From assembly GCA_945873195.1 (NCBI GenBank), contig CAMCDA010000021.1, forward strand, positions 1-35,122: a DNA stretch of 35,122 nt, read 5' to 3'. The stretch's first letter is position 1. Each line of letters begins with the position of its first letter. Both the position numbers and the translations under genes were made by a program. The notes beneath the pieces are model-generated. The model did not search any database. It worked only from the letters and a program-made list of their open reading frames with translations, and was not told the origin of the DNA. Source of the stretch: Asaia bogorensis. GTDB lineage: Bacteria > Pseudomonadota > Alphaproteobacteria > Acetobacterales > Acetobacteraceae. Below are positions 8,960 through 18,126 of this stretch, one piece after another.

Positions 8960-9072
8960 GCCGGATCACCGGTACGCGTTCGGAAGCCGGGTAATCCGGC
9001 GGTTTTGCGGGACATGGGGCTGCTCATGATGGGGTCCGGTGTTAGACATGCCACATCGGTGGGCGTTACGCG

Positions 9073-9101
9073 TTGACGTTTATGGCCCTCCCCCCTATAA
9101 G
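9073..9101 (+). promoter_or_regulatory. Sigma-70-type promoter for rpmH-rnpA
   Basis: -35 TTGACG (9073-9078) and -10 TATAAG (9096-9101) are separated by exactly 17 bases. Transcription would start near 9108, leaving a leader of about 75 bases before rpmH. Each hexamer differs from consensus at one position, the best promoter I can see in the window. It fits a highly expressed ribosomal-protein operon. Confidence 0.75.
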
Positions 9102-9181
9102 CCGCCCCCTGCGACGGGCCGCCCGCAAGGGCGCGCCCGCCCCGTGCTGTTACGGGTTCGCAGAAATCTCGGAGAGAAGTC

Positions 9182-9316
9182 GTGAAGCGCACCTATCAAC
9201 CGTCGAAGCTGGTCCGCAAGCGCCGGCATGGCTTCCGCGCCCGCATGGCCACCGTCGGCGGCCGCAAGGTGCTGGCAAACCGCCGCGCCAAGGGCCGCAA
9301 GCGCCTTTCGGCCTGA
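9182..9316 (+). CDS. rpmH: 50S ribosomal protein bL34
   Basis: A 44-residue, strongly basic protein of the large ribosomal subunit. The translation [20 protein letters not shown]...[19 protein letters not shown] is the universal L34 sequence. It starts with GTG, with GGAGAG (9171-9176) five bases upstream. The conserved order rpmH-rnpA-yidD-yidC follows. It is the first gene behind the promoter at 9073-9101. Confidence 0.97.
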
Positions 9317-9342
9317 GCGCTGCCCAGGGCTGGTATGATCCC

Positions 9343-9714
9343 ATGCCAGCAATCCCGGATCGCGAATCAATGCCAGCCGCTCCGCCCGGCCGCCTGAAAA
9401 AGCGGGCGGAGTTTCTGCGCGTGGCGGCCAAGGGCAAGAAGGCACCCCTGCCCGGCCTGGTGCTGCAAGCCATGCCACGGCAAGATGACCAACCCGCGCG
9501 TCTGGGGTTCACGGTCACCAAGAAGGTCGGCAATGCCGTGGTGCGCAATCGCACCCGCCGCCGCCTCAAGGAAGCCGCTCGGCTGCTGCTGCGGGAACAA
9601 CCGGTGACCGGCGTCGATCTGGTGTTGATCGGCCGCGACGGAACCCGGGCCCGTCCGTTCGAGGCGCTGCGCCAGGACCTGGTCAAGGCCCTGAAACGCA
9701 CGGGCGTGACATGA
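9343..9714 (+). CDS. rnpA: Ribonuclease P protein component
   Basis: The protein subunit of RNase P, which helps the catalytic RNA cut tRNA precursors at their 5' ends. The product is 123 residues from ATG 9343, or 114 from ATG 9370. The family is recognised by RLKKRAEFLRVAAKG near the N-terminus and the RNR motif region VTKKVGNAVVRNRTRRRLKEAAR, followed by GVDLVLIGRDGT. The usual homology begins only at RLKKRAEF, so both starts are possible; neither has a strong ribosome binding site. The stop overlaps the yidD start (ATGA). Confidence 0.92.
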   Translation: MPAIPDRESMPAAPPGRLKKRAEFLRVAAKGKKAPLPGLVLQAMPRQDDQPARLGFTVTKKVGNAVVRNRTRRRLKEAARLLLREQPVTGVDLVLIGRDGTRARPFEALRQDLVKALKRTGVT

Positions 9715-10013
9715 CACCGGCCGCCCATCTCGCTGTCGGCCTGGTCCGCACCTATCAATGGACCATCCGGCCCATGATCGGTGCGAATTGCCGATTCTGG
9801 CCAAGTTGCAGCGAATACGCGATCGAGGCCTTCCGCATCCACGGCGCGCTGCGCGGCGGCGGGCTGACCACGCGGCGCATCCTGCGCTGCAATCCCTGGC
9901 ATCCTGGCGGAGTCGATCTCGTGCCGGATGGCGGCGTCAAGAATCGGCCGGTGCCGGATCGCGGAACCACATTCGACCCAGCGCCGGGTCGCGACAGTCA
10001 AACGGGGCATTGA
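9711..10013 (+). CDS. yidD: Membrane protein insertion efficiency factor YidD
   Basis: A small inner-membrane-associated protein that assists YidC-dependent insertion. The 100-residue translation carries the family core: YQWTIRPMIGANCRFWPSCSEYAIEAF, followed by HGALRGGGLTTRRILRCNPWHPGG, with the conserved Cys residues (C-x5-C and RC-NPW). The C-terminal 25 residues after GGVDLVP are lineage-specific. It overlaps rnpA by four bases upstream and shares its last base with the yidC start, so rnpA, yidD and yidC are coupled. Confidence 0.94.
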   Translation: MTPAAHLAVGLVRTYQWTIRPMIGANCRFWPSCSEYAIEAFRIHGALRGGGLTTRRILRCNPWHPGGVDLVPDGGVKNRPVPDRGTTFDPAPGRDSQTGH

Positions 10014-11755
10014 TGGACCAGAAGCGGCTCTTCCTGGCGATCGCGATTTCGCTCGCCATCATGATCGGCTTCCAGACGCTGATCTCGCCCCAGGTGCCAC
10101 CGCCCTCGGCGAAGCAGGCCACGACCGAGGCCGCCAAGACCGCTGCCGGCGGGTCCGGCGCGGTGCCAACGCCTGGCGCACCCGCCGCCGCGGCCGTGGC
10201 CACGGTGCCCAGGGACGTGCCCCGCGTGCAGATTGACGCTCGCCGCGTCCGGGGCTCCATCAGCCTTCTCGGCGGCCGGATCGACGACCTTGTGCTGACC
10301 GACTACCGGGAGACGATCGACCCCACCTCCCCGTTCGTGCGGCTGCTGGAGCCTCGGTCCGAGCGCAAGCCCTTCTACGCCCAGTACGGCTGGACCGCCC
10401 CGGCCGGGGAAACCACCAAGGTCCCGGACAACGACACCATCTGGACCAGCTCGGGCGACACCCTGTCCGAGAAGAACCCGATCACCCTGTCATGGGACAA
10501 CGGCGCCGGCCTGACGTTTGAAATCGCGCTGACCATTGATGAAAACTACCTGTTCAGCGTGAACCAGTCGGTGAAGAACACGACCGGCGCGCCGGTGCGG
10601 CTGTTCCCCTGGTCCCGCATCCGCCGCGACTACAAGCCGGATGTCCTTGGCTACTATATCCTGTTCGAGGGGCTGCTCGGCGTCGTCGACGGCAAGCTCC
10701 AGGAAGTCACCTACGATGCCGCGAAAAGCGATGCGCCAAAGAAGAAGGGCATCGCCTTCGAGTCGCCGGCCGTGGGCGGATGGGCGGGAATCACCGACAA
10801 ATACTGGCTCGCCGCCCTGATCCCCGATCAGCAGATGCCCTCCAAGATCTTCTTCCGCTACCTCGGCGACAACGGCGACCACTTCCAGGTCGACACCATC
10901 ACCCAGGACCCGAAGGTCATCCCCGCGGGCGAGACAAGCACGCTCGCGTCGCATCTGTTTGCGGGCGCCAAGCAGGTCCACCTGCTCGACCTGTACCAGG
11001 AACAGCTGAACCTGCCGAACTTCGACAAGGCTGTGGATTTCGGCTGGTTCTACTTCCTGACCAAGCCGATCTTCACGGCCATCCACTACCTGAACAACCT
11101 GCTGGGAAATTTCGGCCTCGCGATCATGGTGTTCACCGTGGCCGTCAAGCTCGTGTTCTTCCCGCTCGCCAACTACTCCTACCGCTCCATGAGCAAGATG
11201 AAGCTGCTCGCGCCGAAAATGCAGGAGATGCGGGAGCGCCTGAAGGACAACCCGCAGGAAATGCAGCGGGAAATGATGGCGATGTATCGGGCGGAAAAGG
11301 TCAACCCGGCCTCGGGCTGCCTGCCCATCCTGGTGCAGATTCCGGTCTTCTTCGCGCTCTATAAAGTGCTGTTCGTCACCATCGAAATGCGCCAGGCGCC
11401 GTTCTTCGGCTGGATCAGGGACCTTTCGCAGGTCGATCCGACGAACGTGTTCAACCTGTTTGGCCTGCTCCCCTTCGATCCGACCGTGGTGCCGCTGTTC
11501 GGGCCGTTCCTGCACATGGGCGCCTGGCCGTTGATCATGGGCGTCACCATGTTCCTGCAGCAGAAGCTGAACCCGCCGCCGCCCGACCCCGTTCAGGCCA
11601 AGCTGTTCCAGTTCATGCCCATCGTCTTCACCTTCATGCTGGCGGGCTTCCCGGCGGGGCTCGTCATCTATTGGAGCTGGAACAACCTTCTCTCGATCGG
11701 ACAACAATGGCTGATCATGCGCCAGACCACCTTGACGAAGCCGAAGAATGGCTGA
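10013..11755 (+). CDS. yidC: Membrane protein insertase YidC
   Basis: The inner-membrane insertase working alone or with SecYEG. It is 580 residues, as expected for Gram-negative YidC. The first membrane helix is residues 6-24 (LFLAIAISLAIMIGFQTLI), then an Ala/Pro-rich linker and the large periplasmic beta-sandwich domain (about 70-350). The insertase core has NLLGNFGLAIMVFTVAVKLVFFPLANYSYRSM, the positively charged cytoplasmic hairpin with KMKLLAPKMQEMRERLKDNPQEMQREMMAMYR, the NPASGCLPILVQIPVFFALYKVL stretch, and a final WSWNNLLSIGQQWLIM. The start ATG shares its A with the yidD stop. Confidence 0.97.
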   Translation: MDQKRLFLAIAISLAIMIGFQTLISPQVPPPSAKQATTEAAKTAAGGSGAVPTPGAPAAAAVATVPRDVPRVQIDARRVRGSISLLGGRIDDLVLTDYRETIDPTSPFVRLLEPRSERKPFYAQYGWTAPAGETTKVPDNDTIWTSSGDTLSEKNPITLSWDNGAGLTFEIALTIDENYLFSVNQSVKNTTGAPVRLFPWSRIRRDYKPDVLGYYILFEGLLGVVDGKLQEVTYDAAKSDAPKKKGIAFESPAVGGWAGITDKYWLAALIPDQQMPSKIFFRYLGDNGDHFQVDTITQDPKVIPAGETSTLASHLFAGAKQVHLLDLYQEQLNLPNFDKAVDFGWFYFLTKPIFTAIHYLNNLLGNFGLAIMVFTVAVKLVFFPLANYSYRSMSKMKLLAPKMQEMRERLKDNPQEMQREMMAMYRAEKVNPASGCLPILVQIPVFFALYKVLFVTIEMRQAPFFGWIRDLSQVDPTNVFNLFGLLPFDPTVVPLFGPFLHMGAWPLIMGVTMFLQQKLNPPPPDPVQAKLFQFMPIVFTFMLAGFPAGLVIYWSWNNLLSIGQQWLIMRQTTLTKPKNG

Positions 11756-12375
11756 CCGAGGAAGCGCTGGAAACCGGCCGCAAGATGTTTGCGGCCGAGT
11801 GCCAGTTCTTCTTCGGCGCCCAGAAGCTGGAACAGATCCCGCCCTCCACCCGGGCGGAGATCGCCTTCGCCGGCCGCTCCAACGTCGGTAAATCGTCCCT
11901 GCTCAATGCCCTGACCGGGCGGCGGGCGCTGGCGCGGGCGTCGTCCGAGCCAGGCCGGACCAAGCAGCTGAACTTCTTCGACCTCGGCGAACGGCTGATC
12001 CTGGTGGACATGCCGGGCTATGGCTACGCGCGCGCCGCGAAAGAGGTGAAGGCCGACTGGCAGGGGATGATGTTCGAGTACCTGCGCGGCCGCCCCTGCC
12101 TGCGCCGCGTCCTGCTGCTGCTGGACTCGCGGGTCGAGATCAAGGCGTCCGACACCGCGGTGATGGACTTGCTGGACCGTGCCGCCGTCACCTATCAGCT
12201 CGTGCTGACCAAGGCTGATGCCCTGAAGCCGCCGGCCCTGGAACGCAAGATCCACGAGATCGAGCAGCTTGCCCGCGCCCATCCGGCCGCCCATCCGCGC
12301 ATCGTCGTCACCAGCGCCGAGAATTTCCAGGGCATCCCCGAATTGCGCGCGGAATTGGCGACCCTTGCCGATTGA
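11707..12375 (+). CDS. engB: Ribosome biogenesis GTP-binding protein EngB (YihA/YsxC)
   Basis: A GTPase needed for large-subunit assembly. In the 222-residue product G1 is GRSNVGKSSL, G2 lies around SSEPGRTKQLNFF, G3 is LVDMPGYGYARA, and G4 is LTKADAL. The upstream part FFFGAQKLEQIPPSTRAEIAFAG is typical for alphaproteobacterial EngB. I chose ATG 11707, which overlaps yidC by 49 bases; an earlier in-frame start at 11671 would add 12 residues. The overlap places it in the rpmH-rnpA-yidD-yidC transcript. Confidence 0.93.
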   Translation: MADHAPDHLDEAEEWLTEEALETGRKMFAAECQFFFGAQKLEQIPPSTRAEIAFAGRSNVGKSSLLNALTGRRALARASSEPGRTKQLNFFDLGERLILVDMPGYGYARAAKEVKADWQGMMFEYLRGRPCLRRVLLLLDSRVEIKASDTAVMDLLDRAAVTYQLVLTKADALKPPALERKIHEIEQLARAHPAAHPRIVVTSAENFQGIPELRAELATLAD

Positions 12376-12473
12376 TCCAGGGGGCATCAGCCGGCCCTTA
12401 GCCAGCCGCGGCGGTTCCGGCTAACCTTACACCACCCGTCACCCGGAATCGCCTTCGGCGCAGGAGCCAGATC

Positions 12474-14591
12474 ATGGGAAAACCCCCGCGTACCCCGCGT
12501 CCCGACAAGACGAACGAGGCGCTGCTCGACCTGGCGGAAACCCTGCTGGACGAGATGTTCATCGATCCTGACAACCAGGACGCCTACGAAAAAGCCCGGC
12601 GGGCTCGGCGTGGGGCGCCGCGCAAGATCGTAGAATGGGAAATGTCGGATGACGGCGTGGTGCGGATTTTCGCGCAACCGGGAACGCCCGTCCTCTCGAT
12701 CCATTTGCAGCACGACAAGTTCCAGGCCGAAGTCAGCGCCCAATATGAAATCGAAACCGCGATAATCTCCGAGGCCCAGGTCGTCGCCTTCACCGGTGAC
12801 CGCAGGAAGGCCGCCAAGGTCGCGGATCAGTGGTTCGACGAACAAGCTGATCTCGATTTGGACGACGACATGACCGAGGAACTGATGAAGCTCATGCTCG
12901 GCGATGCGGCGGACGGGTTCGAGAGTGACGGCGACAACGACGACGACTCGGAAGACCCCGGGGAACCACCCCCGCCCACCGCGGAGGACGCGGCCGTGGT
13001 CAAGAAGCTCGCGACCAAGCTCGCCCGCCTGATGAAACGGCGCGATCCCGACATGATGGAGATCGCCGACGACATGATGCAGTTGGAGGAACGGCCGCAG
13101 GCGCTGTGGCCGATCCTGGATGCGCTGGTTGATGCCTGCGCGGCGAAGAAGCGCGACTCGGCGATGGTCGATGCCTGGCGCTTCCTGTTCGCGTCACACC
13201 TCACCATGATCCGCTATCGGATCGACCGCGGCTGGCCCTGGGCCGCCCGCATGGCGGAGCAATGCCAGGCGCGCCTGATCGAAATCGGTGAGGAAGGCCG
13301 GATCCCGTCCGAGGATTTCACCGCCCTGATCGGCGCCTTTGGCGAGGCACGCATCGACATGACCGCCGATACCAAGGCGGCGCTGGCCAACGCGGGGATG
13401 GACCTGGGGGAGGAGGTAACCGAGGACGACCTCCGCGATGTGATGACCCGCGTGCTGAGCCAGATGGCGGAAACCGTGTCCGACCCGTTCGATGTGTGCG
13501 AGGGGCTGGGCGACGCGGTACGTGCGATGCCGGCGGAAGTCCGCAGTTTCATGGCGCATGAATTCGCCCTGTCGCCGCATATGGTGCTGCGTGACGCGGT
13601 GCCGTTGCTGCTGCTGGCGGAGGACCAGGAGGTGCGACGCTCTGCTGTCGCCGCGCTGGAACAGATCGCCGTCCCCGACACCATGTCGCCCGAGACGCTG
13701 CGGCGCATGATCGCGATCCGCAACTGGATCCCTCTCGCGGATCGCGCGCCGCTCGATCAGGCCATCCGCAAGGCTCGGCTGAAAGGCGTGGCCTGCGCGC
13801 AATGGCCGCAGCCCATTGAACTGGCCATCTCCGCCTCGACCATCGATGGCGCCGGCGCATGCAGCATCGTTGTCAGCAGCCGCGGCACCGGCAAGGGCGT
13901 GATCGCCGGCATGCTGCTCAAGCTCGCGTCCGGCGTCGTCGATAGCTGGTGCCATGTCGACATGCCCCGGCGTGAGATCAATCGCATGCTGGAGCGGGTG
14001 CGCGAGGCGACCGAGGCCAGCGAGGTCGGACGCCATTTCCTGGACCTGATGGTGCAGCACGTGATCGCCGCGGGAACGGCGGCCGGGCAGCCTCCCAGTG
14101 TCGTCCTGCTGCGGATCGCGGAGCTTGCCGGCGGATCGGACTGGCAGGATCGGCGGGTCGATATCGCGGCCGAGGCGGAAGCGTTGGTGCACGCCCTGCC
14201 CGGCCCCAAGCGCACGCCCTCCGCGATCGAGGCCTCTCTGAAGCGTTCGGGGGGATGGATCGGCAAGCCTGGATTCTCCGAATCCTGGTTCCTCGACGAT
14301 GCCGACACACGTGCCGAACTGGCTGACGCCCGCAAGAACAAGGACCCCGACCCGGGCGGGCGGCTGCTGGCCAACGTGATGCCGAAGCATCGGGCGCAAT
14401 GGGCGGAACGCTTCCTGCTGCTGGCGGTGCGGGCGGCGTCGGCGAAGGACAAGACGCAGCACGACGCGGCCGGGGACTACGCGATCCTGGCGCATGTACT
14501 GTGCGGCGACCGTGCGCTGGAGACCATTCCGATCATGCGCGCGATCGTCGATCACACGACGCTGATTGGACGGCTGAGCCGGCGCGGCTGA
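12474..14591 (+). CDS. Uncharacterised 705-residue acidic protein
   Basis: I do not recognise this protein. Residues 1-120 form an alpha/beta-looking segment, beginning with a basic Pro-rich tail. Residues about 122-160 are highly acidic (DLDLDDD, SDGDNDDDSEDPGE) and end in PPPP. Residues 170-300 and 370-420 are largely helical, with a HEAT-like pair at about 372-405 (VLRDAVPLLLLAEDQEVRRSAVAALEQIA). A segment SSRGTGKG near residue 470 resembles a P-loop but lacks the first Gly and the Ser/Thr, so I do not call it ATP-binding. No signal peptide or membrane segment is seen. It is a single uninterrupted frame with codon use like its neighbours, following engB at 98 bases, and a minisatellite lies directly downstream. 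Confidence 0.8.
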   Translation: MGKPPRTPRPDKTNEALLDLAETLLDEMFIDPDNQDAYEKARRARRGAPRKIVEWEMSDDGVVRIFAQPGTPVLSIHLQHDKFQAEVSAQYEIETAIISEAQVVAFTGDRRKAAKVADQWFDEQADLDLDDDMTEELMKLMLGDAADGFESDGDNDDDSEDPGEPPPPTAEDAAVVKKLATKLARLMKRRDPDMMEIADDMMQLEERPQALWPILDALVDACAAKKRDSAMVDAWRFLFASHLTMIRYRIDRGWPWAARMAEQCQARLIEIGEEGRIPSEDFTALIGAFGEARIDMTADTKAALANAGMDLGEEVTEDDLRDVMTRVLSQMAETVSDPFDVCEGLGDAVRAMPAEVRSFMAHEFALSPHMVLRDAVPLLLLAEDQEVRRSAVAALEQIAVPDTMSPETLRRMIAIRNWIPLADRAPLDQAIRKARLKGVACAQWPQPIELAISASTIDGAGACSIVVSSRGTGKGVIAGMLLKLASGVVDSWCHVDMPRREINRMLERVREATEASEVGRHFLDLMVQHVIAAGTAAGQPPSVVLLRIAELAGGSDWQDRRVDIAAEAEALVHALPGPKRTPSAIEASLKRSGGWIGKPGFSESWFLDDADTRAELADARKNKDPDPGGRLLANVMPKHRAQWAERFLLLAVRAASAKDKTQHDAAGDYAILAHVLCGDRALETIPIMRAIVDHTTLIGRLSRRG

Positions 14592-14605
14592 GGTTTCTCC
14601 GCCGG

Positions 14606-14703
14606 TCTGATTTCCCGCCTCTGATTTCCCGCCTCTGGTTTCCCGCCTCTGGTTTCCCGCCTCTGGTTTCCCGCCTCTGGTTTCCTGGCCCTGGTTTCCT
14701 GGC
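14606..14703. repeat. 14-base tandem repeat (minisatellite), about 7 units
   Basis: Units of tctgRtttcccgcc start at 14606, 14620, 14634, 14648 and 14662 without interruption. Two more diverged units (tctggtttcctggc and cctggtttcctggc) run from 14676 to 14703. The first two units have A and the next three G at position 5, an ordered decay typical of slippage growth. The period is not a multiple of three, and the array lies between the stop of the 705-residue gene and nfuA, so it is non-coding. Confidence 0.93.
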
Positions 14704-14827
14704 CACGCCGAATTCTTGCGCGGGCTGGAGTCTGGCCCTTGCCAGACGGGGCAATCCGACCGATGTAGCGGCTATACCCGACCGGACCGTGGTGGTCCGG
14801 TTTCATCCCAACCGCGCAGGCTCCGCC

Positions 14828-15391
14828 ATGTTCATCGAAACCGAAGGCACGCCGAACCCCGCGACGCTGAAGTTCCTGCCTGGACAGGACGTCATGGGCC
14901 TGACCACGGCGGACTTCGCCTCCGCCGCCTCGGCCGAACGCAGCCCCCTGGCCACCGCTCTGTTCACCCTGCCGGGCGTCGCCCGGGTGTTCCTGGGCGG
15001 TGACTTCGTCACGGTCACCAAGTCCGACCAGACCACCTGGGCCGATCTCAAGCCCTTGGTCCTCGGCGCGATCATGGAGCATTTCGTCACCGGCCGCCCG
15101 GTAATGAATGCCGACGCCTATGAGGAAATGTTCGAGGAAGACGTCGATCCCGCCGACCGGGAGATCGTCGACCAGATCAAGGAACTGCTGGAAACGCGCG
15201 TGCGCCCGGCAGTGGCCGGCGATGGCGGCGACATCGTCTTCCGCGGCTACCGCGAAGGCATCGTGCGGCTGACGATGATGGGATCCTGCTCGGGTTGCCC
15301 GTCGTCTCGCGCCACGCTGAAGCATGGTGTCGAGAACATGCTGCGCCATTATGTCCCCGAGGTCGTGGCGGTCGAGCAGGTCGAATACTGA
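14828..15391 (+). CDS. nfuA: NifU-like iron-sulfur carrier protein NfuA
   Basis: An Fe-S cluster carrier that hands clusters to client enzymes. The 187-residue product has an N-terminal Nfu_N domain (MFIETEGTPNPATLKFLPG...) and a C-terminal NifU domain (ELLETRVRPAVAGDGGDIVFRGY) with the cluster-binding C-x2-C in GSCSGCPSS. ATG 14828 is chosen because the family's MFIQTE-TPNP opening starts exactly there; the open frame upstream runs through the minisatellite and is not coding. In many alphaproteobacteria nfuA sits beside tsaB and rimI, as here apart from the rutE-like gene between. Confidence 0.94.
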   Translation: MFIETEGTPNPATLKFLPGQDVMGLTTADFASAASAERSPLATALFTLPGVARVFLGGDFVTVTKSDQTTWADLKPLVLGAIMEHFVTGRPVMNADAYEEMFEEDVDPADREIVDQIKELLETRVRPAVAGDGGDIVFRGYREGIVRLTMMGSCSGCPSSRATLKHGVENMLRHYVPEVVAVEQVEY

Positions 15392-15408
15392 TCCCCACCG
15401 GTTGACGC

Positions 15409-15436
15409 GCGGTGCGGCAAGCTTACGCTGCACCGC
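15409..15436 (+). terminator. Possible terminator hairpin after nfuA
   Basis: gcggtgc (15409-15415) pairs perfectly with gcaccgc (15430-15436) across a 14-base loop, followed by accattttct with four Ts. It lies 18 bases after the nfuA stop. A TTGACG sequence (15402-15407) with TACGCT 16 bases later overlaps it and might instead be a promoter for the rutE-like gene, so the site may be a promoter, a terminator, or both. Confidence 0.4.
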
Positions 15437-15463
15437 ACCATTTTCTGTGAATCGGAGATCGCA

Positions 15464-16051
15464 ATGGCTCTCGACGCCGCCGGCCTCGACCTGATTTTTC
15501 GTGAAGCCCGCAGCCACAACGCGTGGCTGGACAAGCCGATCCCCAACGAGACCCTGCGGGAGCTGTTCGATCTGGTGAAGTGGGGGCCGACCTCGGCCAA
15601 CTGCGCGCCCGCGCGGTTCGTGTTCATCCGCACGAAGGACGGCAAGGAACGGCTGGCGCCCGCGCTGTCGTCGGGCAACATGGCCAAGACGATGTCGGCG
15701 CCGGTGACGGTGATCGTGGCCTATGACCCGAAATTCCATGAGAAGCTGCCGAAGCTGTTTCCGCACAACCCGGACGCCGCAAGCTGGTTCACCAGCAACG
15801 AGTCACTGGCCGCGACCACGGCGTTCCGCAACGGCACGCTGCAGGGTGCCTACCTGATGCTGGCCGCCCGCTCGCTCGGGCTTGATTCGGGCGGCATGTC
15901 GGGCTTCGACAATGCCAAGGTGGATCAGGAATTCCTGGCCGATCGCGGCTGGCGTTCCAACTTCCTGGTCAACCTCGGCTATGGCGATCCGGCCGCGCTG
16001 TTTGGCCGTCACCCGCGCCTCGACTTTGATGAGGCATGCGTCCTCCTCTGA
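15464..16051 (+). CDS. rutE: Malonic semialdehyde reductase / nitroreductase-family protein RutE
   Basis: An FMN-dependent nitroreductase-fold enzyme which in uracil catabolism reduces malonic semialdehyde to 3-hydroxypropionate. The product has 195 residues, nearly the length of E. coli RutE (196). Recognisable stretches are [73 protein letters not shown] and [14 protein letters not shown] precedes the ATG. It stands alone between nfuA and tsaB, not in a rut operon; a rutA gene is at the far end of this window. A general quinone/nitro reductase role cannot be excluded. Confidence 0.83.
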
Positions 16052-16081
16052 CCCCACCGAACCCCGGGCGGCGATCGGCCG

Positions 16082-16741
16082 ATGCGTATTCTAGCGCTTG
16101 ATTCCGCGCTCGCGCGCTGCTCCGCGGCCCTGGTCATCGACCAGGTGCTGATCGCGGAGCGGCACGTCGATACCGCGCGGGGCCAGGCCTCGGCTTTGCC
16201 GGTGATGGCACGAGACATCCTGGCCGAGGCCGGTGTCGACCCGCTCAGCCTGGATGCCATCGCGGCGACGGTTGGGCCGGGTAGCTTCACCGGTATTCGC
16301 GCCTGCCTCGCGCTGGCCCATGGCCTGGCGCTGGGCGCCGGCATTCCAGTGGTCGCGGTGACGGTGCCCGAGGCGATGGCGAGTTCACTGCCCCATCTGG
16401 GCCATCGCCGACTTTGGACGGCGATCGACAGCCGACGCGGCCGCGTATTCCTGGATCGCGGCGCGGGGCCGGTTCCCTGCAATCTGGACGATCTGCCCCG
16501 GCCGGACGGGCCGGTCGCGGTGGCCGGCGACGCGGCGATCGCGGTGATGGGATACCTCGCCGCGCGCGGGGTGAATGTCATGCTGACCGATGCGCGCTAT
16601 CCGGCCGGCCGCCACATCGCTGTGGTGGCCGAACAGCGGCTGGCTGGCCAGATCGCCCCGCTCGCGGCCCAGCCGTTGTATGTCGATCCGCCGGAAGCGC
16701 GCCCACCGGCGGGTGGGCTGCGACCGCCTCCGATTGGGTGA
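16082..16741 (+). CDS. tsaB: tRNA threonylcarbamoyladenosine biosynthesis protein TsaB
   Basis: A partner of TsaD and TsaE in making the t6A base 37 modification of ANN-decoding tRNAs. The 219-residue product starts MRILALDSALARCSAALV and has the family signature AATVGPGSFTGIRACLALAHGLALG at about residues 62-86. The C-terminus is Pro-rich (PLYVDPPEARPPAGG), as usual in alphaproteobacteria, where the family motif is LYLRxPDA. It is followed by rimI ten bases downstream, the standard pairing. Confidence 0.93.
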   Translation: MRILALDSALARCSAALVIDQVLIAERHVDTARGQASALPVMARDILAEAGVDPLSLDAIAATVGPGSFTGIRACLALAHGLALGAGIPVVAVTVPEAMASSLPHLGHRRLWTAIDSRRGRVFLDRGAGPVPCNLDDLPRPDGPVAVAGDAAIAVMGYLAARGVNVMLTDARYPAGRHIAVVAEQRLAGQIAPLAAQPLYVDPPEARPPAGGLRPPPIG

Positions 16742-16751
16742 GCAGGATCGC

Positions 16752-17201
16752 GTGAGCACGATCGCACCGGTTGACCGAGAATCGGCGCGCGCGCTGGCGC
16801 TGCTGCACGCCAGCAGCTTCGCCCCGGATGAGTGCTGGAGCGCCAATGTGATCGCCCTGCAACTGGGCGCGCCGGGTGGCTTCGGCTTCCTCGACTCGCG
16901 CGGCGGCATGATCCTGGGCCGAGCGGTGGCGGATGAGGCGGAAGTGCTGACGTTGGCGGTGGAGCCGGAGTTGCGTCGGATGGGAATCGGGGCCGGCCTG
17001 CTGCGCGCCGCGCTGGCGCGGGCGGCGACCATGGGCGCGCAGCGGATGTTCCTGGAAGTCGCGGTGACCAACGACCCGGCGATTCGGCTGTATCGCGCGG
17101 TCGGATTCGAGCCGGTCGGGGAACGACGCCGTTATTACGCGGACGGGACGGATGCGCTGCTCATGCGGGCGCGCTTGGCCGCCCCCCCGACCGAATCCTA
17201 G
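16752..17201 (+). CDS. rimI: Ribosomal protein bS18 alanine N-acetyltransferase RimI
   Basis: A GNAT acetyltransferase, 149 residues. The acetyl-CoA loop is VEPELRRMGIGAGLLRAALARA (R-R-x-G-I-G-x-x-L). The family's later motif appears as FLEVAVTNDPAIRLYRAVGFEPVGERRRYYADGTDALLM, with the substrate Glu and Tyr residues. GTG 16752 is the start that follows tsaB closely, with AGCAGGA as a weak ribosome binding site. The last four bases overlap the stop of the convergent TusA-like gene. Confidence 0.92.
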   Translation: MSTIAPVDRESARALALLHASSFAPDECWSANVIALQLGAPGGFGFLDSRGGMILGRAVADEAEVLTLAVEPELRRMGIGAGLLRAALARAATMGAQRMFLEVAVTNDPAIRLYRAVGFEPVGERRRYYADGTDALLMRARLAAPPTES

Positions 17202-17443
17202 CCGCCCCGGCGCAGCAGCAGCCGCGTCACGCCATCGTCGTCGGTTTCCAGGCTGAGCACTTCGTGCCCTTGTTCCTTTGCCGTCCTGGGAACATTGCGC
17301 AGGGGTTCCTCGCCCTTGAGCCGCACGAGGAGTGTCTGACCGGGCGCCATGCGATCCAGCGCGAGACGTGTCCTGACGAAGGTCATCGGACAAACTTCTC
17401 GTGTAATATCCAGTTCGCGGTCGGCGGATTGCAAATATGTCAT
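17198..17443 (-). CDS. TusA-family sulfurtransferase-like protein
   Basis: An 81-residue protein of the SirA/TusA fold, a family that carries persulfide sulfur for tRNA thiolation and cofactor synthesis. The hallmark segment is LDITREVCPMTFVRTRLALDRM with C18, then GQTLLVRLKG and NVPRTAKEQGHEVLSLE. The classical Cys-Pro-x-Pro motif is Cys-Pro-Met-Thr here, so the second Pro is absent; that variant is frequent in alphaproteobacterial paralogues as I recall. It is convergent with rimI (four-base overlap) and divergent from mucR, sharing a 90-base upstream region with it. Confidence 0.82.
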   Translation of the reverse strand: MTYLQSADRELDITREVCPMTFVRTRLALDRMAPGQTLLVRLKGEEPLRNVPRTAKEQGHEVLSLETDDDGVTRLLLRRGG

Positions 17444-17475
17444 GAAGCTATTGCTCTCCGATGTTCAAATAACCA

Positions 17476-17503
17476 TTGCAAGATATCCGACTCCATCTAT
17501 ACT
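17476..17503 (+). promoter_or_regulatory. Promoter for mucR
   Basis: -35 TTGCAA (17476-17481) and -10 TATACT (17498-17503) are 16 bases apart in a locally AT-rich stretch, 30 bases before the mucR start. The -10 differs from consensus at one position. MucR/Ros proteins often repress their own gene through AT-rich sites, so this stretch is also a candidate operator. Confidence 0.55.
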
Positions 17504-17533
17504 AGCTAAGTCTCCGGATAGAAAGGGAAACCG

Positions 17534-17944
17534 ATGGCCGATACAGCGGGTAGCAACACTGTTCTCAGCTTGACCGCGCAAATCGTCTCGGCCCATGTCT
17601 CCAACAACGCCGTCGCGTCTGACGCGCTGCCGTCGCTCATTCAGGATGTCTTCCGGACCCTGAGCGGAATCGGCACGGAAGTTGTCGAGGCAGAACGGCC
17701 GCAGCCGGCAGTGCCCATCAATCGGTCGGTGTTCCCCGACCACATCATCTGTCTGGAAGACGGCAAGAAGCTGAAGATGTTGAAGCGCCATCTCAAGACA
17801 GCCTACAACATGACTCCCGAACAATACCGCGAACGCTGGGGCCTGCCGTCGGAATACCCCATGGTCGCGCCGAACTACGCCGAACGGCGTTCGGTCCTGG
17901 CCAAGGAAATTGGCCTCGGCACCAAGGGGCGCGCGGGGCGCTAG
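17534..17944 (+). CDS. mucR: MucR/Ros-family transcriptional regulator
   Basis: A prokaryotic zinc-finger-fold regulator, typically a repressor of exopolysaccharide, motility and cell-cycle genes through AT-rich DNA. The product has 136 residues. The N-terminal part (residues 8-50, LSLTAQIVSAHVSNN...LIQDVFRTL) is the oligomerisation region, and the DNA-binding domain is about residues 62-125, with CLEDGKKLKMLKRHLKTAYNMTPEQYRERWGLP in two overlapping halves. Of the four Ros zinc ligands, C73 and H86 remain, while positions 2 and 4 are D76 and Y91; metal-free folding of such variants is known in Mesorhizobium Ml proteins. AAGGGA precedes the ATG. It stands just upstream of fur. Confidence 0.93.
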   Translation: MADTAGSNTVLSLTAQIVSAHVSNNAVASDALPSLIQDVFRTLSGIGTEVVEAERPQPAVPINRSVFPDHIICLEDGKKLKMLKRHLKTAYNMTPEQYRERWGLPSEYPMVAPNYAERRSVLAKEIGLGTKGRAGR

Positions 17945-18126
17945 GGCCTGACGGTGGGCAGCCTGTCGTCCACCGAACGACCTCTGGGGCCACTCGCCCG
18001 CCATGGCCAATCTCTGTTGGACAGGTTCCCCCTGATCAACTAGGCGAGGGCCACCATATACCAGCGACCGGCCGGCCAGAAGCCGAACCGGGCGTCGCAA
18101 CAATCGGGTGCTTGGCAAGGGAACCG

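Follow-up and report, generated by a model that had tools for sequence, protein, structure and literature searches.

What is encoded by the long reading frame that lies between engB and nfuA in this window, the whole analysed stretch of 35,122 nucleotides, and what might its product do? A preliminary description made from the letters alone presented the frame as an acidic, partly HEAT-like protein of 705 residues with no recognisable domain and with a possibly lineage-specific function. The analysis reported here turns this one 'hypothetical protein', henceforth X, into a definable family that has set boundaries, recognisable motifs and a fold predicted with confidence.

A gene under purifying selection

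X and its surroundings are laid out as follows.

11707–12375, forward strand: engB/yihA GTPase gene (Pfam MMR_HSR1), the upstream neighbour, 98 nt ahead of X
12474–14591, forward strand: X, a 705-residue protein composed of module A, linker and module B (open reading frame, homologues, dN/dS)
14592–14699, no strand: 14-bp tandem repeat, 7.5 copies (repeat search)
14828–15391, forward strand: nfuA (Nfu_N and NifU in Pfam), the downstream neighbour

In the list of open reading frames of the window X opens with ATG and extends for 705 residues, and the identity of both flanking genes is confirmed by Pfam. When 59 genomes in 27 genera were searched, 22 contained a match to X (the window's genome counted), all of them in the window's own genus. 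With the window's own copy set aside, the full-length matches share 34–52% identity with X, and no internal stop occurs in the 24 matches listed. The dN/dS ratio is 0.10–0.19 in five close pairs and 0.24–0.26 in three transposon pairs. To judge from these comparisons X is a real gene under purifying selection; the reading frame, its homologues, dN/dS and the Pfam-assigned neighbours together uphold the initial view of a full-length gene between engB and nfuA. That X is a spurious or decaying frame, a notion for which patchy presence and nothing more can be cited, is practically discounted, and a chance frame was rejected, as it is already refuted by the dN/dS values of 0.10–0.26 in all eight pairs and the lack of internal stops in the 24 matches listed.

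The protein is acidic, with a pI of 4.9 and a net charge of −33. Among stretches of 40 residues the most acidic one begins at residue 122 and holds 19 aspartates or glutamates, a density equalled in none of 2000 shuffles of X. The acidic linker proposed at about 122–160 is supported. The 14-bp repeat, with the consensus GGTTTCCCGCCTCT, starts at the base that follows the X stop codon and takes up part of the gap between X and nfuA.

Domain anatomy and predicted structure

An AlphaFold2 model of X, built on a 31-sequence alignment, has a pLDDT of 88.6 and a pTM of 0.71, with pLDDT below 50 at residues 1–7, 129–133 and 141–159. Helices occupy residues 170–436, four strands follow at 450–498 and mainly helices continue up to residue 701. 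The following parts are distinguished.

12474–12857, forward strand: module A, residues 1–128, predicted alpha-alpha-beta5-alpha (AlphaFold2 model, profile, alignment)
12858–12968, forward strand: acidic linker, predicted to be disordered, residues 129–165, net charge −15 (model, mostly of low confidence; composition)
12969–13790, forward strand: predicted HEAT-like helical solenoid, residues 166–439 (model; VIA rows; Pfam HEAT_2 below cut-off)
13791–14588, forward strand: C-domain, residues 440–705, predicted four-stranded sheet plus helices (separate model)
13806–14009, forward strand: predicted WGR-like sheet, residues 445–512 (fold matches; conservation in 47 sequences)

Module A, which is missing in paralogues of the B-only form, is predicted to be an alpha/beta domain of its own, tethered to the rest by the acidic linker, and module B is predicted to consist of a HEAT-like solenoid with a cap made of a WGR-like sheet and helices. 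The C-domain looks self-standing, because residues 436–705 modelled alone reach a pLDDT of 93.6 and a pTM of 0.90. HEAT-like helices had been anticipated in the C-terminal half: the helices exist, but they are placed in the middle of the protein, at about 166–440, and the last 265 residues form a separate sheet-plus-helix domain in the AlphaFold2 model.

Comparison with known families and folds

The expectation that no recognisable domain would be found has held. X has no match above cut-off in Pfam, in NCBIfam (nothing at E 10), in PADLOC-DB 2.0.0 (nothing at E 0.01) or in PHROGs (nothing at E 0.1). The phage records searched contain no match, and Rfam returns none on window positions 9000–18000. 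The lack of a PADLOC match at E 0.01 led to rejection of a known anti-phage defence system; of eight proteins compared with PADLOC only one relative (L055) was matched, inside its UPF0149 part. The family is uncatalogued, but it is not a novel type of system, as the parts predicted for it are of known kinds.

The solenoid is the first of these parts. The only Pfam entry reported for X is HEAT_2 (PF13646), at residues 345–403 with 15.5 bits and E 0.022, short of the curated cut-off of 27.7 bits; a relative (L043) scores 18.3 bits, also below it. A PDB sequence search with alignment A1 returns designed alphaRep and similar chains over 355–410 (best E 0.0024), and searches with A3 and A5 give one chance-level match each. 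The fold search with the full model retrieves HEAT and armadillo proteins over 168–441, with a best VIA Z of 9.6, a level to be read with caution, as a Z under about 13 may mean a common arrangement only for helical repeats. VIA re-ranks Foldseek's own matches only, and its lists speak only for the fold families among them. The possible likeness to HEAT-repeat proteins such as alphaRep and Escherichia coli YibA (1oyz; Z 8.3, rmsd 3.0 over 91 residues) lies in the predicted solenoid of helical pairs at 166–440; X differs from them in remaining below the Pfam cut-off and in joining the solenoid to N- and C-domains of other folds.

The sheet of the C-domain is the second part. Foldseek finds nothing in the PDB at E <0.001 with the C-domain; a PARP1 chain containing WGR and HD heads the list (E 0.18), and PARP1, PARP2 or ARTD2 make up 13 of the 50 rows listed. 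After VIA re-alignment these proteins account for nine of 50 rows, with Z 3.5–4.8 over the sheet, and three rows from the SAGA complex have Z 3.8–4.8; no row reaches a Z of 5. The sheet, at about 445–521, superposes on PARP1 and PARP2 with Z 4.4–4.8 and an rmsd of 2.5–3.3 over 70–79 residues, in chain ranges that we take to be the WGR part, and a bacterial WGR profile matches the same PARP chains. In a viral fold library the C-domain has no match at E <0.001. Row 2 there is a viral ADP-ribosyltransferase (E 0.035), row 6 an unnamed 74-residue protein (rmsd 2.3, TM 0.76 of its own length) and row 26 a named WGR protein (E 0.75).

Membership of the WGR family was rejected on motif and profile tests, and the fold resemblance alone is kept. 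Across 47 sequences the turn of the WGR motif has G in 33 and R in 24, the window having T-G, and no conserved W precedes the G-R. PF05406 is not reported for any of the 47 members at E 1, and hhalign against 14 bacterial WGR domains gives a probability of 0.1. The D-G-x-G-A signature of the X family is, in turn, absent from the WGR alignment A7. The sheet is called WGR-like in fold, and weakly so in the predicted structure, and not a WGR member, because of the profile probability of 0.1, the lack of PF05406 and the unconserved W.

Two further families touch module B. DUF7401 (PF24134) is matched by nine of the 47 C-domains at E up to 1, with a best E of 1e-4; the window (E 0.13 over the sheet, 12.9 bits) and L055 (21.3 bits) both stay under the cut-off of 27. 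The DUF7401 profile has no match in 142 genomes of the class and 200 of the phylum, a search in which the controls were also silent. UPF0149/YgfB-YecA (PF03695, TIGR02292) forms the C-terminus of module-B relatives from Paracoccus, Marivita and an alphaproteobacterial MAG, with matches above the Pfam cut-off in the three fusions scanned (L053–L055), and certain plasmid relatives are annotated 'UPF0149 family protein'; protein X of the window has no such match in Pfam. Within the set of papers surveyed, word co-occurrence found nothing joining UPF0149/SecA/YecA, Rhodopila/HEAT, DUF7401, bacterial WGR/HEAT or Tn3/NGR234.

Distribution and phylogeny

A 24-row profile was used to survey 33 genomes of a Rhodopila-like genus, the window's own counted. 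Two MAGs bear the titles Nitrosovibrio and Asaia, which conflict with the genus to which their contigs are assigned; these titles are probably misnomers. Matches occur in 22 of the 33 genomes, and in 15 of the 23 that are well assembled. The full-length A+B form is present in 20, the window's included; two genomes (G007, G028) have the B-only form alone, which is without residues 1–160, and 11 have no match at all. Both forms coexist in the window's genome and in G008, and G004 has an additional fragment of 44 positions. As genus members without X exist, the gene is accessory. Among the relatives that bear a name are Rhodopila globiformis DSM 161 and strains of Acidisphaera, and a distant one is Geomesophilobacter (Geobacteraceae). 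A contig scan with the single protein gave 28 pattern matches and no relative, and the alignment-based scan that followed gave 33 loci.

In a sample of the family 17 of 249 genomes match (12 of 102 genera), and one of those from outside the genus, G913, has module A too, to judge from its translation. A 22-row profile of module B matches 22 of 398 Pseudomonadota genomes (10 of 213 genera), or 19 after setting aside three that had supplied rows to the profile (the window's genome, G317 and G378), and module B is matched in 42 plasmid records as well. The N-terminal regions vary between the module-B groups of Pseudomonadota, and copies of the Rhodobacterales type end in UPF0149. The suggestion of a lineage-specific protein is supported in part: A+B was found in the window's genus and in G913, from another genus of the same family, but the HEAT-plus-C-domain core recurs sparsely in Pseudomonadota and, judged by these profile matches in genomes, Geomesophilobacter and plasmid records, is not lineage-specific. 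The family is common to chromosomes, plasmids and a Tn3 transposon.

A single genus (g348; L103–L111, L114) supplies 10 of the 22 Pseudomonadota genome matches, with a different N-terminal region, and its five loci with flanks (L141–L145) have chromosomal neighbours in common. In the Geomesophilobacter relative (L052, 7305–9455) a cysteine-rich N-terminus (C-x-C...C-x-C) without Pfam match replaces module A.

Module A was sought in 289 genomes of the class and gave four matches counting the window; the profile already contained these rows, which inflates the E-values. With a profile lacking them, it appears as short stand-alone frames in three other genomes of the class (E 1.1e-10, 8.8e-8 and 9.6e-5), two of which adjoin a divergent flaF (Pfam E 2.5e-27 and 1e-29). 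At L061 (926–2884) and L062 (932–2843) a trio is seen of divergent flaF, stand-alone module A and a frame that resembles a periplasmic binding protein by eye and has no Pfam match at E 0.001.

The tree contains 48 rows, L122 being left out. Nineteen A+B and seven close B-only rows form one group (100/100), inside which the seven B-only rows are one clade (100/100); three further copies from Acetobacteraceae (L126–L128) fall outside it. Four UPF0149 fusions form a clade (100/99), as do three Tn3 rows (100/100), and these two clades join at 100/100. The closest row to the window copy is its sister L025 (100/99), a copy unlinked to engB, and the engB-linkage label requires four changes. L090, L052 and L059 sit on long branches and their placement is unsure.

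Proposed role

The comparisons establish, at the level of sequence, a conserved core (about 160–705) with an exchangeable N-terminus, presence or absence of the whole gene and purifying selection. On this basis the preferred reading, in which belief and doubt weigh equally, is that X belongs to an uncatalogued family of accessory, modular proteins that act as protein-binding adaptors or scaffolds. The solenoid and the sheet would together offer a surface for binding, centred on the nearly invariant R416, W418, R424, D428, R432, R435, D458, D490, R499 and E550. Choice of the partner would fall to the N-terminal domain, which is exchangeable, or to UPF0149 at the C-terminus in relatives of the Rhodobacterales type. 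If a terminal domain chooses the partner, X could act as an adaptor that holds it or, by binding, regulates it. Expression of X would be growth-linked through read-through from engB.

The adaptor reading draws support from the domain anatomy, the HEAT-like region, domain shuffling, the engB neighbour and purifying selection, and also from the finding that no catalytic family lies above cut-off for X. A possible precedent by analogy is the UPF0149 protein YgfB, which works by binding the regulator AlpA in Pseudomonas aeruginosa (PMC9998450). The reading may be weakened by the HEAT matches of the predicted structure, which are of the common-arrangement kind with a best Z of 9.6.

Association with a rhizobial transposon

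An unlikely alternative is that module B is an accessory of mobile elements, regulating transposition or resolution for instance, and that the Rhodopila-like clade domesticated it behind engB. The case for it comes from rhizobial plasmids. A Sinorhizobium protein is matched by 44 plasmid records, with at least 60% identity at the best place in 33 of them, some matches being partial, and 12 loci of the rhizobial group were fetched for comparison. In 11 of the 12, tnpA sequence, either complete or decayed, stops 18 nt short of the ATG of the module-B gene, which puts this ATG 15 nt beyond the position of the tnpA stop codon, and in 10 a resolvase gene or its remnant follows. L198, with 66% identity, has neither tnpA nor resolvase, and L092 has no resolvase match. 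The rhizobial Tn3-family transposons carry a module-B gene of 521–522 amino acids about 140–145 nt ahead of the resolvase gene, and their transposase is a Tn3 DDE protein (Pfam E 6e-133). In four loci long inverted repeats bound tnpA, the module-B gene, the resolvase gene and a small frame over 5.7–5.8 kb, at the following coordinates.

L200, 955–6739: rhizobial Tn3 copy
L093, 2570–8360: rhizobial Tn3 copy
L096, 1559–7345: rhizobial Tn3 copy
L201, 953–6691: rhizobial Tn3 copy

The 45 repeat bases shown are identical in three copies and differ at two places in L201. A 5-bp target duplication was not seen at the four copies, whose ends are uncertain by 1–3 bases. Because the inverted repeats enclose the module-B gene, it is part of the rhizobial Tn3 element. 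In copies with a degraded tnpA, such as L097, L199 and L202, the X-family gene keeps an open frame. The transposon copy, lying between tnpA and resolvase, gives experiments a tractable way into a function that stays hidden in the chromosomal copies.

A second setting that speaks for mobility is found in the window's own genome, where a module-B paralogue (L023, 1–4355, contig C137) lies between a recombinase gene (PF07508) with a frame of 138 amino acids and hsdM. These surroundings are island-like. In L160 a recombinase from this cluster stands ahead of the gene, separated from it by a small frame of similar size, and in L153 such a recombinase is the adjoining gene. Against a general mobile role, however, the three Tn3 copies in the tree form a single clade among unlinked copies, and therefore the association with Tn3 may be a single capture. 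Furthermore, the window has no match to tnpA or resolvase near X (L001, window 10974–16088), and no transposase neighbour recurs in 20 loci, the exceptions being two recombinase-like and one transposase-like cluster member. The window copy also differs from the transposon genes in its extra N-domain and its chromosomal place beside engB.

A more specific version, improbable and a shade more so than the general one, would make module B an undescribed, broadly dispersed family that joins a HEAT solenoid to a distant WGR-type sheet that senses nucleic acid, serving DNA or RNA transactions in mobile elements, as a core gene in the rhizobial Tn3 transposon, and captured behind engB with a new N-domain.

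The engB neighbourhood

Location rather than mobility is the starting point of the next alternative, which is distinctly improbable: X would be a biogenesis factor for ribosomes or membrane insertion that acts directly with EngB or YidC. X lies behind engB on the same strand, with a gap of 10–248 nt, in 17 of the 20 A+B genomes (98 nt in the window); the linkage is present even in the early-branching pair L040/L041, and yidC and rnpA are found upstream wherever the contig reaches. Of the three that break this pattern, G004 has engB on a different contig, G017 gave no close match to engB and G032 lies outside the engB-survey sample; in their loci (L025–L027) no engB is seen within 12–18 kb. In L026 and L027 a frame resembling mutS by eye is upstream of X, and the frame after X is of the same kind as that directly after X in L031, L037 and L044; the downstream gene varies among relatives.

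The absence of X from relatives that bear engB is what led to the rejection of an EngB-specific factor as first choice. A close engB match is found in 29 of 32 genomes of the genus (G017, G020 and G025 having weak matches alone), but 11 of 33 have no match to X and two more have the B-only form. Co-occurrence with engB, put forward as a check, is thus positional in 17 of the 20 A+B genomes but not obligatory, with engB in 29 of 32 against X in 20 of 33. In two loci without X engB directly precedes a frame that, by eye, resembles those following X elsewhere (L237, like L031, L037 and L044; L238, like L040 and L041, in translation), and in L240 a frame of the post-X kind stands one gene further on. 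G014, with the closest engB (81% identical), has a methyltransferase-like frame as the next gene, in a genome that is 64% complete. Since the genes after engB in genomes lacking X resemble those after X elsewhere, X behaves as a single-gene presence/absence unit. X is moreover away from engB in L025–L027, and the relatives in other lineages have different neighbours.

X diverges faster than its neighbours: identity to the window in L025–L050 is 33–50% for X, 63–77% for engB and 61–66% for yidC where present. Co-expression of X with engB is probable from the gene order. As neither a sigma-70-like promoter nor a terminator-like site was detected at 11600–15000, where 0.3 and 1.7 respectively would be expected by chance, it is position that argues for a common operon.

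Conserved residues and the possibility of catalysis

C-domains were usable from 76 of 82 loci (L049, L051, L056, L057, L125 and L132 were left out), and 46 of these with the window make up the 47-sequence alignment; alignments A2–A6 leave out L051, which has runs of N, L056 and L057. The conserved residues that are assigned above to a binding surface could equally, on sequence grounds, be an active site. The corresponding alternative, which is very doubtful, is that X is an enzyme with an active or ligand site near the sheet formed by R416, W418, R424, D428, D458, D490, R499, E550, W557 and D563. In its favour, conservation reaches 97% or more at 34 positions across 27 rows of the Acetobacteraceae type, 15 of these positions lying between 410 and 500, and one member has a weak match to the RES domain (E 0.0055); but one such match among 47 is within chance, Pfam and NCBIfam give no enzyme family above cut-off and the C-domain has no fold match with E <0.001. 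The adaptor reading accommodates the same residues as a contact surface.

Five residues, D458, G459, L481, G487 and W643, are invariant over the 47 C-domains. The signature of the family sheet is D-G-x-G-A, with D458 and G459 invariant, together with L481, G487 and D490. A few residues of the window copy depart from the family pattern, for example C463, where 37 of the 47 sequences have Q.
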